Source: Armatimonadota bacterium (lineage in GTDB: Bacteria > Armatimonadota > Fimbriimonadia > Fimbriimonadales > Fimbriimonadaceae). Taken from it: a stretch of DNA of 64,000 nt. Under the pieces are notes generated by a model. It searched no databases, was not told where the DNA came from, and saw nothing but the letters and a program-made list of their open reading frames with translations. Both the position numbers and the translations under genes were made by a program. Positions 2,537 through 9,814 of this stretch are shown here, piece by piece. How positions within the stretch are numbered: the stretch's first letter is position 1; each line of letters starts with the position of its first letter. The DNA lies in NCBI GenBank assembly GCA_016789105.1, contig JAEURN010000007.1, forward strand, positions 124,001 to 188,000, read 5' to 3'.

Positions 2537-4969
2537 TTGATTCGCAATTGGAAGAAATGGGGGAAAAAGGCGGCCTGTGCCGCCTTGATCTGTCTTGCCG
2601 GCCCGGCAATGGCGGCAAAAACCCAAATCACGGTCTGGGGAATGGCCATCACCCCCGATGAAAAAGGCAACGACCTGATCGTCCGCCAATTCGAAAGGGA
2701 CAACCCAGACATCCAGGTCAACCTTTTGGGGATGGGCGCGGGGGCCATGAACCCGCAAAAGCTCATGACCGCCATTGTGGGCGGGGCACCCCCCGATGTG
2801 ATTTTGCAGGACCGGTTCACAATCAGCGATTGGGCGAGTCGGGGTGCATTCCGCCCCCTTGACGACTTGATCGCCCGCGACCGCGGCAACGACCCTTATT
2901 GCCCAACCCCCGAGCAATACTATCCCGCCGCTTGGAACGAATCGGTCTACGAAGGCAAGGTTTACGGCATCCCTTATGCCGCCGACAACCGCATCCTTTA
3001 TTGGAACACGCGGGTTTTTGCCGAAAAAGCCGACGACCTGCGAAAAGCTGGGCTCGACCCAAACCGCCCGCCGCGTACCTGGAGCGAAACCCTTGCCTAC
3101 AGCAAAGTCCTCACGGAATTCAATCCAGATGGGTCGCTGAAACGGGCGGGATTCATCCCCAACGAAGGGAATTCCTGGCTCTACCTTTTCGCCTTCCAGA
3201 ACAATGCCGAATTCATGAGCCCCGATGGGCGACGATGCACCCTCAACACCCCGGCCGCGGTGGAGGCGCTCCAGTTCATGAAGGACGGGTATGCGATTTT
3301 GGGAGGGTACGAAAACGCTCTCAAATTTAAGTCTGGGTTCCGAGGTGGCGAAAACGATCCGTTCGCAATCGGCCAAGTGGCGATGATCGTCAACGGCGAC
3401 TGGATGATCGCCAACTATGCTCGGTATTCCCCCAAAGCCCGGTTCCAAACGGCCCCAGCCCCCGTGCCAGACGACCGGTTTGCCAAACGGGGGCGGTTTG
3501 CCAACGAGAAAGATACATTTATCACGTGGTCTGGGGGGTTTGCCTATGCCATGCCCAAGGGGGTGCGGAACGTTGAGGCGGCATGGAAGTTCATCAAATA
3601 CATCCAATCGTTCGACGGTCGGATGCTCTATGCCAAAGGCCAATCCGACCTCGAAAGGGCCCGGGGGCGGCGGTTCATCCCCCGGATCCAAGCTCAGGTC
3701 AAGGCGACGGAAGCCCAGGCGGCACTCTACGCCTCCGGCAACAGCGATTACGATCGGGCCCTGCGGATGCACGCCAAAATGATGCTATTCGCCCGTTTGC
3801 GCCCGGCCACATTTGTCGGCCAAAAGCTTTGGGATGAGCACGTCCGGGCGATTGAACAGGCTTGCCGGGGGGCCGAGACACCGGAACAAGCATTGCAAAA
3901 CGGGCAAGACCGGGTGCAACAAACTCTGGATGAATTTTTCTCCAAGGACAACTATCCAAAAGTCGACATCGAGGCCTGGGTGGGCGGGTCGTTTGCCGCC
4001 GCAGTAGCGGGGCTGGCGGTTTGGGTGGCCTTGATGATCCGGCGGGGCCGGGACAGGGTTTCCGCTCAGGAGACTTGGGCCGGCTACCTGTTCATCAGCC
4101 CGTGGATCTTTGGGTTCCTCGTCTTCACGCTCGGGCCGATGGTGGCCGCCATCGTCTTTTCAACGATGCAATACGACGTGCTGAACCCCGCCCATTTTGT
4201 CGGCGGCAAGAATTTCACGGACGTTTTCCAATCCGATTGGCAGCTCCTCAAAACCTCCTTCACGAACGTCGGGTACTTGGCGGTGATCGGCATCCCGCTT
4301 GGGCTTTCGACCGGTTTGACAATCGCGCTTTTGCTGAACACCGGGGTCAAAGGGATTCGGTTCTACCGGACTGCTTACTATGTGCCCTCGATCGTCCCAT
4401 CGGTCGCTTCCACTTTCTTGTGGGTCTGGATCATGACCGCCGATGACAAGCGGGGATTGCTCAACAATTTGTGGAGCCACACCATTACGCAATGGTTTGG
4501 CGTGGCTTCACCCGGATGGCTTGGCGTCGAACCGTGGGCCAAACCGGGCCTGATCTTGATGGGGCTCTGGGGGGCCGGAGGTGGGATGATCTTGTGGTTG
4601 GCCGGGCTCAAAGGAGTCCCGCAAACGCTTTACGAGGCGGCCGAAATCGATGGGGCCAGCGGGTGGCAGCAATTCTGGAAGGTCACCTTGCCGCAATTGA
4701 CCCCGCTCATCTTCTTCAATTCCGTCATGTCCTTCATTGGTGTGCTGCAGACCTTTGACGGGGTTTATCTCATCACACGCGGTGAAAACATGGGCCCGAA
4801 CGATGCCTTGGCCACGCCGGTTTACATGCTGTTCAAAAACGGGTTCGCCTATTTCCGGATGGGATATGCCAGCGCCTTGGCCTGGTTGATCTTCGCAATC
4901 GTGGTCGCCGTCACGTTGGCGCAATTCAAGTTGGCCCCCAAATGGGTTCACACGGAGAGTAACAAATGA
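2537..4969 (+). CDS. Sugar ABC importer: solute-binding protein fused to MalF-type permease
   Basis: One continuous frame joins two proteins that are normally separate. After a basic N-terminus and signal-like segment (KKAACAALICLAGPAMA) comes a family 1 extracellular binding domain to about residue 475, with typical GGAPPDV, GIPYAADNRILYWN and VNGDWMIANY motifs. A membrane helix at about 480-503 follows. Residues about 515-808 form a MalF-type permease with the EAA loop near residue 700 (EAAEIDGASGWQQF), which docks to the ATPase. The start is uncertain: TTG at 2537 follows TAAGG by six bases and gives a compact signal peptide; the frame is open further upstream. The last bases overlap the MalG-type permease gene (ATGA). 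No ATPase gene is nearby. Fusion would tether the binding protein to its channel. Confidence 0.88.
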   Translation: MIRNWKKWGKKAACAALICLAGPAMAAKTQITVWGMAITPDEKGNDLIVRQFERDNPDIQVNLLGMGAGAMNPQKLMTAIVGGAPPDVILQDRFTISDWASRGAFRPLDDLIARDRGNDPYCPTPEQYYPAAWNESVYEGKVYGIPYAADNRILYWNTRVFAEKADDLRKAGLDPNRPPRTWSETLAYSKVLTEFNPDGSLKRAGFIPNEGNSWLYLFAFQNNAEFMSPDGRRCTLNTPAAVEALQFMKDGYAILGGYENALKFKSGFRGGENDPFAIGQVAMIVNGDWMIANYARYSPKARFQTAPAPVPDDRFAKRGRFANEKDTFITWSGGFAYAMPKGVRNVEAAWKFIKYIQSFDGRMLYAKGQSDLERARGRRFIPRIQAQVKATEAQAALYASGNSDYDRALRMHAKMMLFARLRPATFVGQKLWDEHVRAIEQACRGAETPEQALQNGQDRVQQTLDEFFSKDNYPKVDIEAWVGGSFAAAVAGLAVWVALMIRRGRDRVSAQETWAGYLFISPWIFGFLVFTLGPMVAAIVFSTMQYDVLNPAHFVGGKNFTDVFQSDWQLLKTSFTNVGYLAVIGIPLGLSTGLTIALLLNTGVKGIRFYRTAYYVPSIVPSVASTFLWVWIMTADDKRGLLNNLWSHTITQWFGVASPGWLGVEPWAKPGLILMGLWGAGGGMILWLAGLKGVPQTLYEAAEIDGASGWQQFWKVTLPQLTPLIFFNSVMSFIGVLQTFDGVYLITRGENMGPNDALATPVYMLFKNGFAYFRMGYASALAWLIFAIVVAVTLAQFKLAPKWVHTESNK

Positions 4970-6702
4970 CGGCTGAGTTGCTGTTTGCCCTGCTCACCTT
5001 GGCCCTATGGACAGGGGTGTTCTTATTCTGCCGGGGGATTTTTGCCGCGGTTCGCATGGCTTTGGCCGGCCCGGGGCACGACCGGGCGGGAGCCATCAGG
5101 ACGATCATGCTCTCGGCCGGGATCGGCGGACTGCTGCTTCTGGTGGGAGGCCTTGCGCCAAAAGAACTGGGGCGAGCGGCGCCCGGGCCCTATGTTCCGG
5201 TCATCTGGCTTTATTCCCCCATTCCTGGGTGGGTGGCGGTGTTGGGAGCCGGCATGGTTGCTGCGAGCCTGATCAAGGCCTCGGCAGCCCTCACGGCCGC
5301 CGAGAAGCAAGCGGCCATCAAGGCGTCGGCAGGGTGGTTGGCCACTTCGGTTTTCGGGATTTGGTGGCTGCACGCAATGGATGGGCGGTTCTCTCTATTG
5401 AGGGGGGGCATACCCCTGCATTGGCCGCTGGTAGCCGGCCTCTTCGCCCTTTTGGTGGCGGCGATGGCGGCCATGGTGTGGGCCGAACGCACGCTGAGTG
5501 CCCGAGGGATTGCCAAGAAGTTTGTGGTGCAGGCAACCCTGATGGCAGGGGCGGCCGTCTTCAGCCTTCCGTTCATCTGGCTGCTGACCACTTCGTTCAA
5601 AGAAGAGCGCGACCTCGCCAATACCGACGGGATCGTCTGGGTGCCCCAAGTGCAAGACACCCATCCGTTCCACGACCCTGAAATGCCCCTGTTCAAAACA
5701 ACCTACAACGGAAGGGATGTGCAGGTCAAAAAGGACTCCGAACAGGCAGGCGGCAAGTGGCTGGTGGAGGTCGAACGCCCCTATGGGATTAGGGGGAGGA
5801 GGTTTGAAACGTCCAGGTCACAGCTCAAAGAGATCCCGCGGGATCAACCGGTGTGGTCGCTAAAAAGCGAGGGCGGCCTGGCGACCGCCTTCACCGTGAG
5901 AGACCAAGAAGACGGCTCCCGGCTGGTCGAGTTCCTGACCCCTCCGGAAAAGAAAGGCCAACGCCTGACCGCATCCCCCGAAGAACTGGAGCCGGTGCGT
6001 CACCCCGGACTCAAAATTCAAAACTATTCCGATGCCCTGGAATGGATGCCCCTAGAAACTAATTTCGGCCTCGCCTACCTGACCAACACGCTCTGGCTGG
6101 CCGGGATGAGTGTTTTGGGCACGGTGCTTTCCTGCTCCATCGTGGCTTATGGGTTTGCGCGGCTCCGGTTCCCGGGGCGGGACCAGCTGTTCTTTTTGAT
6201 GCTGATGACCATGATGTTGCCCGGCGCGGTGACGATGCTGCCCCAGTTCCTGATCTTCACCCGACTGGGATGGATGGATTCGCTGTTGCCGCTTTGGGTG
6301 CCGACCTTTTTTGCCGGGGCATTCAACGTGTTCCTACTCAAACAGTTTTTTGGCACCATCCCCATGGAGCTTGAAGAAGCGGCCAGGATCGACGGATGCG
6401 GCTATTGGCGCACCTATTGGCAGATCATGTTGCCTTTGGTCAAGCCAGCTTTGGCAGTCATCGCGATTTGGACGTTCATGGGGGCGTGGAACAACTTTAT
6501 GGGCCCCCTGATTTATGTCAACTCGCCCGCCAAAATGCCGATCAGCTATGCGATGGGGCTCTTTGCCAGCGACCGGGGAACCGACCAGGCGCTGATGATG
6601 GCCTTCGCCACCATGTCTACCGTGCCGGTGATCTTGCTCTTCTTCTTCGCCCAAAAGTACTTTATCGAAGGCGTCCAGCTCAGCGGGATGGGGGGCCGGT
6701 GA
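4966..6702 (+). CDS. Enlarged MalG-type sugar ABC permease
   Basis: A 578-residue protein, about twice the usual MalG length. Residues 1 to about 180 hold several extra hydrophobic helices. The MalG-like first helix and the LLTTSFKEERDL motif lie near 185-220. A hydrophilic insert of about 140 residues (roughly 222-360), rich in charged residues and beta-like, follows before the core helices resume at NFGLAYLTNTLW. The cytosolic EAA loop (EEAARIDGCGYWRTYWQIMLP) sits near 468-488. Its start overlaps the upstream fusion gene by four bases, so the two proteins are the two halves of one importer. The insert lies on the outer face if the usual topology holds, where it could contact the tethered binding domain (inference). 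Confidence 0.88.
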   Translation: MTAELLFALLTLALWTGVFLFCRGIFAAVRMALAGPGHDRAGAIRTIMLSAGIGGLLLLVGGLAPKELGRAAPGPYVPVIWLYSPIPGWVAVLGAGMVAASLIKASAALTAAEKQAAIKASAGWLATSVFGIWWLHAMDGRFSLLRGGIPLHWPLVAGLFALLVAAMAAMVWAERTLSARGIAKKFVVQATLMAGAAVFSLPFIWLLTTSFKEERDLANTDGIVWVPQVQDTHPFHDPEMPLFKTTYNGRDVQVKKDSEQAGGKWLVEVERPYGIRGRRFETSRSQLKEIPRDQPVWSLKSEGGLATAFTVRDQEDGSRLVEFLTPPEKKGQRLTASPEELEPVRHPGLKIQNYSDALEWMPLETNFGLAYLTNTLWLAGMSVLGTVLSCSIVAYGFARLRFPGRDQLFFLMLMTMMLPGAVTMLPQFLIFTRLGWMDSLLPLWVPTFFAGAFNVFLLKQFFGTIPMELEEAARIDGCGYWRTYWQIMLPLVKPALAVIAIWTFMGAWNNFMGPLIYVNSPAKMPISYAMGLFASDRGTDQALMMAFATMSTVPVILLFFFAQKYFIEGVQLSGMGGR

Positions 6703-6755
6703 TTTATTGAATCCTTAACTTGGATTTTTCCGAGTCTTATGTTAGAGTGGAAGTC

Positions 6756-8356
6756 ATGGCTGTTACTTCTCGGTTGGCACCGGCGTTGCCGTTGGCATTA
6801 GTGGTGTGTGCGGTTGTCGCGGTTTTGGTTCCGGGCACGGGTGTTTCGGCAAAGAGTGCCATGAGCCCGGTCGCCTCCCCCCCCCCCCGACACCTGGTTA
6901 CGTGGTGACTTGGACAACGAGTAGCGGCACCGACCACACGACGGGGCCAGCCGGATCAGCAAGCAGGAACTGGAGCTCGTTAACTCCTCCTACCGGAGGA
7001 ACTTACTCATCTGGGGCATTTTCAGGGGGATCTTGGCGGTCGATATCGACGGGCACTTGTGACACCGGAGGCACGATGAAAGCCACATTTACTTGGGACG
7101 ACGCCGGTACTGGTCAGACGCCCCCGCCCATAGTCGTTGTAACCGAAGTCGTTACGGTGGTTGCAGAAGGAGACACTTTTTCTGCCAGCTCCAGTTTTTC
7201 CACAACGAGCATTCCAACGACGAATGGAATTGTGTTGTATGGCGACGATGTAACCGTCATCCAGAATCCTGGTTCATCATTTACAAAGCAGATATCGGCA
7301 AGCGCCGCCGCAACGCTAAACGTCAATTCGCAATCGGGGCTCGCCGCCGCTTCTGTCAGTGGTGCCTTCACCGTGGCCGCCTATCCGGTCAGCATCTCGT
7401 TGCAAGGTGTCCGCGATAAATATACGGACCCAAAGTGCTTGATCGGTCAGAAAGTGGAGGCGAAATTAACGACGAGTTTGCCCTTGGATGGGGGCGAAAC
7501 GTACACCTGGACAGCGTCGGGTGATAGAAAATTCAATTCGTATGTAATGGGCCAGTCCGCTGCAACGTTGAATACGACGATCAATGTGAATAATGTCAAC
7601 CTGCAACTTGCCTATGCGAAGCCACAATCCAGCACTCTGGCATGCACGTTCTCACCAGATCTTTGGGGATTGGGGGATATGGACTTAAATGTGAGCATCA
7701 CAATTGCGCCTCCGGAAAGCCCTTCTATGACTTTTTCGCAAGGGTCGATGGGAGTATGGTTGTACGGTTCGCAGCCAATTTTCGGTACTACCGGCCTGAC
7801 GGTGACGATCCCGAACAACAGTTGGTACCAACCGAATTTTGCTGGTCAGACCGGTCAATTTGGCGTAAAGTGGACAACTGAGATGTATACGCCGACGGTT
7901 TTCCAGACGGGTAATGGCGATACTGTTTTTTATGTGAATACGTTGACTGGAGTTGACCGCTGGTATACGGATGCAAATAATAACCGGCTTCCAATGAATG
8001 TTCCCTACGCAAACTTTTCGGGCGGCAGAAAGTTGGATGGCGGTTTGCCATACATTGTAGCTAGCATAGGATACTTTCCTGCGCTTTCTGGACTTAAATT
8101 GGAGATCGATCAACCGTACATGAATTGCTCGCCGTCGGATAAGAAGATGGAGATGAACGACCACCATGAAGTATTCCTGATGTACAAACCACCTTGGAAC
8201 GGTTTTGAAAGCTACGAAGTCCCGGTAGTTTCGACAACGTGGAACCCCCACGGTTCAGCAACCAAAGTCTCTGGCACCTGGCAGCTCGATTCCGGTAGTG
8301 CAATAACCGTCGGAACCGCCGTGAGCTACCCCGACTTCCCGATTTACCCACAATAG
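6756..8356 (+). CDS. Exported protein of unknown function, split by a poly-C frameshift
   Basis: The ATG at 6756 opens a classic signal peptide (APALPLALVVCAVVAVLVPG, Ala-rich cleavage region). That frame runs into twelve Cs at 6877-6888 and ends soon after with HLVTW-stop. The body, about 490 residues, is in another frame from the same tract: PPPPTPGYVVTWTTSSGT onward, rich in Thr, Ser and Asn and beta-like, with no cysteine-rich or enzymatic motif I recognise. Adding one C, or removing two, joins both into a 533-residue secreted protein. Either the tract is variable in length or the assembled length is wrong. The gene is more AT-rich than its neighbours and lies 10 bases before the next one, likely co-transcribed. 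Confidence 0.7.
6877..6888. repeat. Homopolymer tract of 12 C
   Basis: Twelve consecutive C residues within the 5' coding part of the exported-protein gene. Such tracts are prone to slipped-strand length change during replication and also to sequencing error. At length 12 the gene is out of frame; lengths 10 or 13 restore it. Confidence 0.97.
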
Positions 8357-8366
8357 AAGGCAACCC

Positions 8367-9206
8367 ATGACTATCACCTCAATCATCCTCGCGATCACGT
8401 TTCAACCGGCTCTCCAAGAGCGCGGGGGAGGGAGTAACCCCATCCTTATGAGAGGCGGTGAACTCATTCAACACATCTCGCAGTTGGATCCGGAAAGCCA
8501 GCAAAGGTACCGCAGCGACCTGGCCAGTGCGCAGGCCCTAATCAAACTTGGTAATGGAGTAGACGCGGAGCATCTGATGTGGAATTGGAGATCCTTCTGG
8601 CCAAAAGAGCCAGATATCTTGGAAACCATATTCCAGATCGAGCTACTGAAGAGGCCGTACCACGATCTATCGATTTGGGCAAACGCTTATCAGAATATTT
8701 ACGTAGAGGCTCATCAGAACAAGCAATTCGATTCGATTCACATTAAATTGAAGATGCAGTACGCGTTTGCTGGCTCTTCTACAGGAAGTGTTCAACTGGA
8801 CTATTTCGGATTTAACGGGTATGAGCATTACTTCGATCTGCCCGAGTCGAAAAGCTGGAATCTATCAAGAAAATACATCGCTGCCGACCCAGAAGATGCC
8901 ACGGAGTCTCCTGATAGGGAAACCCTAAGACGGAACGGCACCGTCGTTATGTGCGGCATGTATAGTTCGAACCCTTACATCGTGATTGCGCTGATTGAAA
9001 AGCAAATGGCCGTGGAAGGGATTGAAAGGGGCCAAGTCATTGCTTTGTTTGGAAAGGATCAGGCTCTCACATTGCTTGCAGGGCGTGCCTACGAAGCCAT
9101 CCACGATACGGCTTCTGCCCTTCGCAACTACCATATTGCCGCCAAAGGAACTGATCCGGACTTTGCCAAAGAGGCCGCCGATGCGATCATCCGGTTGCAG
9201 AGATGA
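8367..9206 (+). CDS. Exported or periplasmic protein of unknown function
   Basis: A 279-residue protein with a short hydrophobic N-terminus (MTITSIILAITFQPA) that may be a signal peptide. The middle has helical, tetratricopeptide-like spacing (DAEHLMWNWRSFWPKEPDILETIFQIELL), and the C-terminus AGRAYEAIHDTASALRNYHIAAKG reads like a TPR unit. I recognise no enzyme family. It follows the frameshifted exported-protein gene after 10 bases and overlaps a 33-codon frame at its 3' end by ATGA, so the three look like one transcript. Its codon use is more AT-rich than the flanking housekeeping genes. Confidence 0.7.
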   Translation: MTITSIILAITFQPALQERGGGSNPILMRGGELIQHISQLDPESQQRYRSDLASAQALIKLGNGVDAEHLMWNWRSFWPKEPDILETIFQIELLKRPYHDLSIWANAYQNIYVEAHQNKQFDSIHIKLKMQYAFAGSSTGSVQLDYFGFNGYEHYFDLPESKSWNLSRKYIAADPEDATESPDRETLRRNGTVVMCGMYSSNPYIVIALIEKQMAVEGIERGQVIALFGKDQALTLLAGRAYEAIHDTASALRNYHIAAKGTDPDFAKEAADAIIRLQR

Positions 9207-9304
9207 GCGACAGGCGATACATACGCAAAGAATTAGAACGGCTTGTCCCGCAACTGGAGTGGCAAATCAGCAAATATGGCGACAATCCCCCTCCGGGCGG
9301 CTAG
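9203..9304 (+). CDS. Possible 33-residue small protein
   Basis: ATG at 9203 overlaps the stop of the preceding gene (ATGA). The product is 33 residues, starting MSDRRYIRKELERLVPQLEW, highly charged and helical, ending in a Pro/Gly tail. It stops one base before the end of the convergent ndk gene. Translational coupling and charge pattern support a real microprotein, but the length is too short to be sure. Confidence 0.4.
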   Translation: MSDRRYIRKELERLVPQLEWQISKYGDNPPPGG

Positions 9305-9305
9305 T

Positions 9306-9719
9306 TCAGCCGACCAAACCTTCCGGGAACCAGAGGCTGAGCTCGCGGGCGGCGGCCTCAGGATCGCTGGATGAGTGGACCAAATTATCTTCAATCGTCA
9401 GGGCCATGTCGCCGCGAACCGTGCCGGGTTCGGCTTCCACTGGGGTGGTGGCACCCATCATCATGCGAATGGCTTTGGTGGCATTGGGGCCGGCCACGGC
9501 CAGCGCCACGACCGGGCCGCTGCACAGGTAGTTGACGACGTCGTTGAAAAACGGACGCTCTTTGTGCTCAGCGTAATGCTCTTCCACGGTGGCGCGGGGG
9601 GCGTTCATCAGCTTGAGCCCGGTGATTTTGAGCCCGCGCAACTCGATGCGGCGGATGATCTCGCCATTCAGGTTGCGGGCCACTCCGCCCGGCTTGATCA
9701 GCACCAAAGTCGTTTCCAT
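9306..9719 (-). CDS. ndk: Nucleoside diphosphate kinase
   Basis: A 137-residue protein, the usual length for bacterial Ndk, which transfers the gamma phosphate of ATP to other nucleoside diphosphates in the cytosol through a phosphohistidine. The N-terminus TLVLIKPGGVARN is the family ATP-binding start. The active-site His is H115 in DNLVHSSSDPEAA; the family usually has HGSD here, so Ser replaces Gly. ATG at 9719 (METTL) gives the standard N-terminus; an ATG two codons earlier is possible. A TAACCT hexamer lies 9 bases upstream. Confidence 0.96.
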   Translation of the reverse strand: METTLVLIKPGGVARNLNGEIIRRIELRGLKITGLKLMNAPRATVEEHYAEHKERPFFNDVVNYLCSGPVVALAVAGPNATKAIRMMMGATTPVEAEPGTVRGDMALTIEDNLVHSSSDPEAAARELSLWFPEGLVG

Positions 9720-9814
9720 AATCATTCCAGGTTACCGGCCCGGCCCTTCTTCACCGGGCCCAAAATCCTCCCCGGCGCAACCTAATCGGCGACCGGGAGT
9801 AAAGTCTCTCTACT

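Follow-up and report, generated by a model that had tools for sequence, protein, structure and literature searches.

For the gonococcal gene pilC, translational phase variation by a homopolymeric poly-G tract has been described, and for fetA and porA of Neisseria, transcriptional phase variation by a homopolymer located between the -10 and -35 boxes (PMC5320596). Switches of this kind are familiar from some pathogens, and cases of translational phase variation mostly come from host-associated bacteria. A survey of 99 prokaryotic genomes revealed that homopolymeric tracts favour the 5' ends of genes; it found poly-A and poly-T in excess, while tracts of C and G were mostly underrepresented (PMC2831843). 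The word Armatimonadetes does not occur in the text of this survey, nor was any paper found among the openly licensed papers searched in which phase variation is mentioned together with Armatimonadetes or Armatimonadota. The mechanism discussed here, known as such, thus appears to be unreported for Armatimonadota in the openly licensed literature searched. Within the same limits, this agrees with an initial annotation of the locus, which called the mechanism not well known in this group.

The locus belongs to a genome of the family Fimbriimonadaceae (Armatimonadota), labelled G000 in the comparisons, of which a stretch of 64 kb (the window) was analyzed. A tract of twelve Cs (C12) is situated at the 5' end of one of its genes, where the tracts of the survey preferentially lie, too. 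The gene resembles pilC-type translational phase variation in that the repeat lies in the 5' coding part of a presumably exported protein and that only every third length permits a full product. It differs from these cases by the environmental Armatimonadota lineage to which it belongs, by an unnamed protein family, and by repeats of one, two, seven and eight bases which occur at one place within this family.

The C12 tract, its reading frames and the surrounding cassette

The C12 tract (6877 to 6888, plus strand) separates two reading frames. Frame A (6756 to 6876, plus strand) contains the start codon and a strongly hydrophobic stretch. The product starting at the ATG at 6756, MAVTSRLAPALPLALVVCAVVAVLVPGTGVSA...PPPRHLVTW, comprises 50 codons and terminates shortly past the tract. 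The hydrophobic stretch makes MAVTSRLAPALPLALVVCAVVAVLVPGTGVSA a typical signal-peptide sequence, this call being based on hydrophobicity alone and not on a dedicated signal-peptide predictor; export is inferred, and there are no localisation data. Exposure outside the cytoplasm is usual for phase-variable products, albeit not strictly required. Frame B (6889 to 8356, plus strand) encodes the body of the secreted protein with 488 codons, the stop codon being located at 8354 to 8356. Across this region, the body frame does not contain any internal stop, while the other two forward frames contain 17 and 29. The tract occupies codons 41 to 44 counted from the ATG, and its unit length is not divisible by three. 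Within the range of lengths from 8 to 15, the two frames are joined solely at 10 and at 13, with computed products of 532 and 533 residues, respectively, while tracts of 8, 9, 11, 12, 14 and 15 give only 49 to 56 residues. A change in tract length within this range thus switches the computed reading frame from truncated to full-length or back.

This anatomy and the frame arithmetic are shown by the sequence itself. They agree with the initial annotation, according to which a signal peptide starting at 6756 and a body of about 490 residues meet in different frames exactly at the twelve Cs, one more C or two fewer restoring the frame. That the body has no other credible start holds with a nuance, since a GTG at 6806 lies in the body frame upstream of the tract (516 aa). 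This start is merely mechanical, as no hydrophobic signal sequence is encoded. Decay of the downstream frame, which had been named as an observation that would refute the idea of switching, was not found.

The C12 tract is the sole C or G run longer than seven in the window; the next C run comprises six bases, and there is no G run above seven. On either strand, a C12 is expected 0.10 times and was present in 9 of 100 dinucleotide-preserving shuffles of the window. Its length alone is therefore only mildly unusual, the telling part being its placement at the frame junction. A possible promoter (6715 to 6743, plus strand), proposed merely because of its resemblance to the consensus, consists of TTAACT (6715 to 6720), a 17-base spacer and TATGTT (6738 to 6743), and ends 12 bases before the ATG. 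Other repeat-bearing secreted genes of Fimbriimonadaceae likewise have their promoters very near the start codon.

The assembly of G000 comprises 2.75 Mb in 11 contigs and is 99.96% complete. Together with a second gene (8367 to 9206, plus strand), which starts 10 bases past the stop of the C12 gene and encodes a protein of 279 aa with a hydrophobic N-terminus and no Pfam match, the C12 gene forms a two-gene cassette (6703 to 9305, plus strand). The limits given are those of the flanking genes, the breakpoints not having been mapped. A conserved ABC permease gene (4966 to 6702) borders on one side of the cassette, a conserved minus-strand gene (9306 to 9725) on the other, whose product we take from its sequence to be nucleoside diphosphate kinase-like. 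In three congeners (loci L172, L173 and L175), the permease gene is directly followed by the nucleoside diphosphate kinase-like gene and an ABC ATPase gene. The cassette is thus missing at the equivalent place, which identifies the gene pair as an accessory insertion. Two other congeners contain different reading frames at this position. Relatives of the second gene were not found beside homologs of the C12 gene. The third-position G+C of the body is 0.47, compared to about 0.75 in neighbouring genes, which may point to a foreign origin, but equally to weaker constraint.

Homologs of the protein body and repeats at their 5' ends

By a protein search followed by a profile search, homologs of the body were detected in 21 of 85 Fimbriimonadaceae genomes; a weak match came from one more genome within the order. 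The named records belong to metagenome-assembled genomes of Fimbriimonadaceae and of unclassified Armatimonadetes, one being labelled Chthonomonadaceae, which is in line with the grouping of G000 with Fimbriimonadaceae. Aligned to the body of the window protein, ten members show identities of 22 to 27%. The body, free of stops, is intact, and conserved members of its protein family exist across genera. A scan of genome contigs with the window protein did not find any relative. Searches in Pfam and NCBIfam gave no match for the window protein and none above the curated cut-off for 11 aligned members, and a PDB sequence search yielded no useful name. The fold model of the protein is poor (mean pLDDT 57.5) and good only in part of the N-terminal 275 residues. 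Structure matches cover mainly one Ig/PKD-like module (residues 167 to 276) with a middling Z of about 8. It is possible that the N-terminal part is made of beta-sandwich modules, one of them Ig/PKD-like, as the model predicts. Due to the poor model beyond residue 275 and the middling Z, no function is claimed.

Repeats were recorded in a 5' zone of 195 bases if they were runs of at least nine, five dinucleotides, or three copies of 4-, 5-, 7- or 8-mers. By this rule, frame-changing repeats were found in 14 of 31 homologs, while control windows contained them in 3 of 336 cases (p = 2e-14). One of the 14 (G032b) is weak, its GCAG repeat preceding an intact start. An offset frame was present in 11 of 13 repeat-bearing homologs but in only 4 of the remaining 18 (p = 0.001, or p = 0.003 once sister copies are counted as one), the frame states having been assigned by eye from translations. 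Both the enrichment of repeats and the frame offset of the homologs carrying them are thus shown. Random lengths would put two thirds of the repeat-bearing genes in the OFF state, and the share seen is not significantly different (p = 0.24).

The kind of repeat varies between homologs. In two genes of G034, a C10 follows the signal peptide and the body lies in another frame; one of them (G034a) additionally has a nonsense codon in its body. In two genes of G035, a G9 behind codon six separates the start from the hydrophobic core and the body, which lie in a different frame. Genes that are likewise out of frame harbour a G12 inside the signal peptide (G075), a C12 about 100 codons into the gene (G018), a C10 after the signal peptide (G029), heptamer repeats (G032, two genes) and six copies of a heptamer (G084). 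A paralog within G000 itself, on contig C8, carries four copies of an octamer and is out of frame, too. Three copies of a heptamer in G017 and a (CT)12 within the signal peptide in G006 leave the genes in frame. The shift required is not uniform, though many homologs need the same one. In two homologs (G002a and G025b) the frame is broken without any repeat, demonstrating that decay does occur in this protein family. The reading as phase variation, already put forward in the initial annotation, is strongly supported by these varied repeats at or near the signal peptide, most of which leave the gene out of frame. The comparison with related genomes proposed there revealed repeats differing by homolog; as there is one genome per species, it could not provide tract lengths between strains.

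A separate observation concerns a caspase-domain protein encoded on contig C11 of G000, whose signal-like N-terminus is immediately followed by a C9 (L080, 1500 to 1508), the gene being in frame. Inferred from its sequence, this gene has the layout of the C12 gene in the ON state.

G runs in promoter spacers

In the 85 Fimbriimonadaceae genomes, a pattern with a G run between TTGAC and a TA box matched 33 times, compared to three matches of the reversed pattern. The spacers have lengths of 14 to 22 with a mode of 17. Elsewhere in the phylum, the pattern exceeded its control by less. A gene with a hydrophobic N-terminus lies close downstream of all 29 G-run promoters examined; among 47 long ORFs in the window, 15 encode such an N-terminus. 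The test was based on 28 of 29, and the best reading frame was picked per locus, which flatters the count of 29. Like the homopolymers of fetA and porA, these G runs are situated between the two promoter elements, here in front of secreted genes. Unlike them, they belong to two-gene cassettes of secreted and pseudopilin-like proteins, in which the downstream start is usually about 10 to 30 bases past the TA box. Among the pattern matches L139 to L168, start codons usually lie just 10 to 15 bases past the TA of the -10 box. Such short distances might suggest leaderless or nearly leaderless transcripts.

Many of the longer C and G runs of G000 lie upstream of two-gene secreted-protein cassettes or of a gene for a small secreted protein together with a pseudopilin-like gene; two of the pseudopilin-like proteins possess an N-terminal methylation motif. 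In several of these loci, a G run separates TTGAC from a TA box; G-run promoter cassettes of G000 are located at C2:213177-213201, C4:152955-152978, C4:154587-154618 and C9:30242-30272. On contigs C2, C8, C9 and C10 (L044, L067, L075 and L078), runs of 8 to 12 G or C precede genes for small secreted proteins, often rich in cysteine, behind which a pseudopilin-like gene follows. Several C runs are accompanied by a recurring element, GGTCTTTAG or GTCTTTAG (L073 at about 1508 to 1540 and 3705 to 3846, L075 at 1500 to 1517, L078 at 1502 to 1522). Two neighbouring cassettes on contig C4, at about 152,957 and 154,589 (L051, 1502 to 1510; L052, 1502 to 1518), contain promoter spacers with a G9 and a G17. 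Their promoter and signal-peptide sequences are 88% identical over 121 bases, while the coding sequences behind them are unrelated. Tract length therefore changes while the flanks stay similar, and it is conceivable that promoter and signal peptide constitute a reusable module. For differences in tract length between clones or strains, this duplicated promoter is indirect evidence only. Promoter-spacer switching is not relevant to the C12 gene, as its repeat lies within the coding region.

Proposed phase variation and its rivals

We regard it as likely that the C12 gene is a contingency locus at which slipped-strand mispairing switches an accessory cassette for secreted proteins by phase variation, and that it was assembled in the OFF state. 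The switching itself is inferred, as reads, sister strains and expression data were not available. According to this model, mispairing during replication would add Cs to or remove Cs from the tract between the signal-peptide codons and those for the mature protein. Two of every three lengths would lead to a stop after about 50 codons and a dead-end peptide (OFF), while the third would give an exported protein of about 533 residues (ON). A tract length that varies in living populations, expression that depends on it, and a location of the protein on or outside the cell surface are all inferences. The C12 gene forms one accessory cassette with its neighbour at 8367 to 9206. In Fimbriimonadaceae it would be one among a wider group of secreted-protein genes under repeat control, some switched by frame like the C12 gene, others probably by the number of Gs in a run that separates the -35 box from the -10 box. 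Several observations speak against switching, among them the low third-position G+C of the body and the repeat-free frame breaks in G002a and G025b. MutS, whose absence was tested as a possible cause of the many repeats, is present in the genome; slippage at homopolymers should therefore be slowed, and rates are perhaps modest. Furthermore, OFF is the sole state seen for the C12 gene, one genome per species having been compared.

An error in assembly or base calling, the true tract being in frame and the gene always on, was named as the rival by the initial annotation. Homopolymers of 12 are indeed error-prone, and contig C5 ends with a G71 (L082) while contig C6 starts with a C67 (L083), both of which look like sequencing artefacts, so that the assembly was not trouble-free at such runs. 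In addition, contig C7 starts near another C12 (L084) and shares 22 bases with the end of contig C5, which likely means that the assembly broke off at a run of Cs. On the other hand, 43 C or G runs of at least eight were listed in G000, and the roughly 20 located inside long genes, all of eight or nine bases, leave the frame intact. No coding run of at least 10 other than the C12 was seen in this genome, hence accuracy at length 12 remains uncalibrated. The homologs, though, are also offset at repeats of seven and eight bases, which homopolymer miscalling does not produce. Since these units are longer than one base, base-calling error is improbable as a general explanation, and for the C12 gene, too, we consider it unlikely. 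A uniform under-call of homopolymers, suggested by the same shift needed in several homologs, was rejected, as others need a different shift and some repeats have units of seven or eight bases.

Alternatively, the C12 gene may be a decaying accessory gene that was silenced by a fixed frameshift, the tract being a scar. The accessory nature of the cassette, the low third-position G+C of the body, the nonsense mutation in G034a and the repeat-free breaks in G002a and G025b are in line with this. By contrast, no stop has accumulated in the 488 codons past the tract, and neither an association between repeat and frame across genera nor varied repeat types at one site would be expected of random decay, which makes this explanation very unlikely. 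Slippage of RNA polymerase or of the ribosome on the C run would provide a constant little full-length protein without any change of the DNA. Long homopolymers can cause such slippage, and many homologs need the same frame shift. Nevertheless, the 7- and 8-base and CT repeats at the same place and the homologs requiring a different shift are left unexplained, so that this possibility also appears very remote.

Phase variation therefore remains the preferred reading, and the comparative evidence for switching in Armatimonadota is unusually good. A bolder interpretation, to which we incline by a narrow margin, is that Fimbriimonadaceae, and perhaps other Armatimonadota, possess genome-wide phase-variable cassettes for secreted and pilus-like proteins which mix frame and promoter-spacer switches. 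One protein family would have repeatedly gained different repeats at a single signal-peptide site, indicating convergent selection for switching in free-living bacteria. In genomes derived from metagenomes, genes of the C12 type are likely to be taken for pseudogenes or for errors of the assembly. If the interpretation is true, the family would offer a comparative test, different repeat types having arisen at the same place in one protein family. Descriptions of repeat-driven phase variation mostly concern host-associated bacteria, and immune evasion is given as its explanation. Should an environmental and largely uncultured lineage prove rich in such switches, this would speak for other pressures, for example phages, predators or crowded biofilms.
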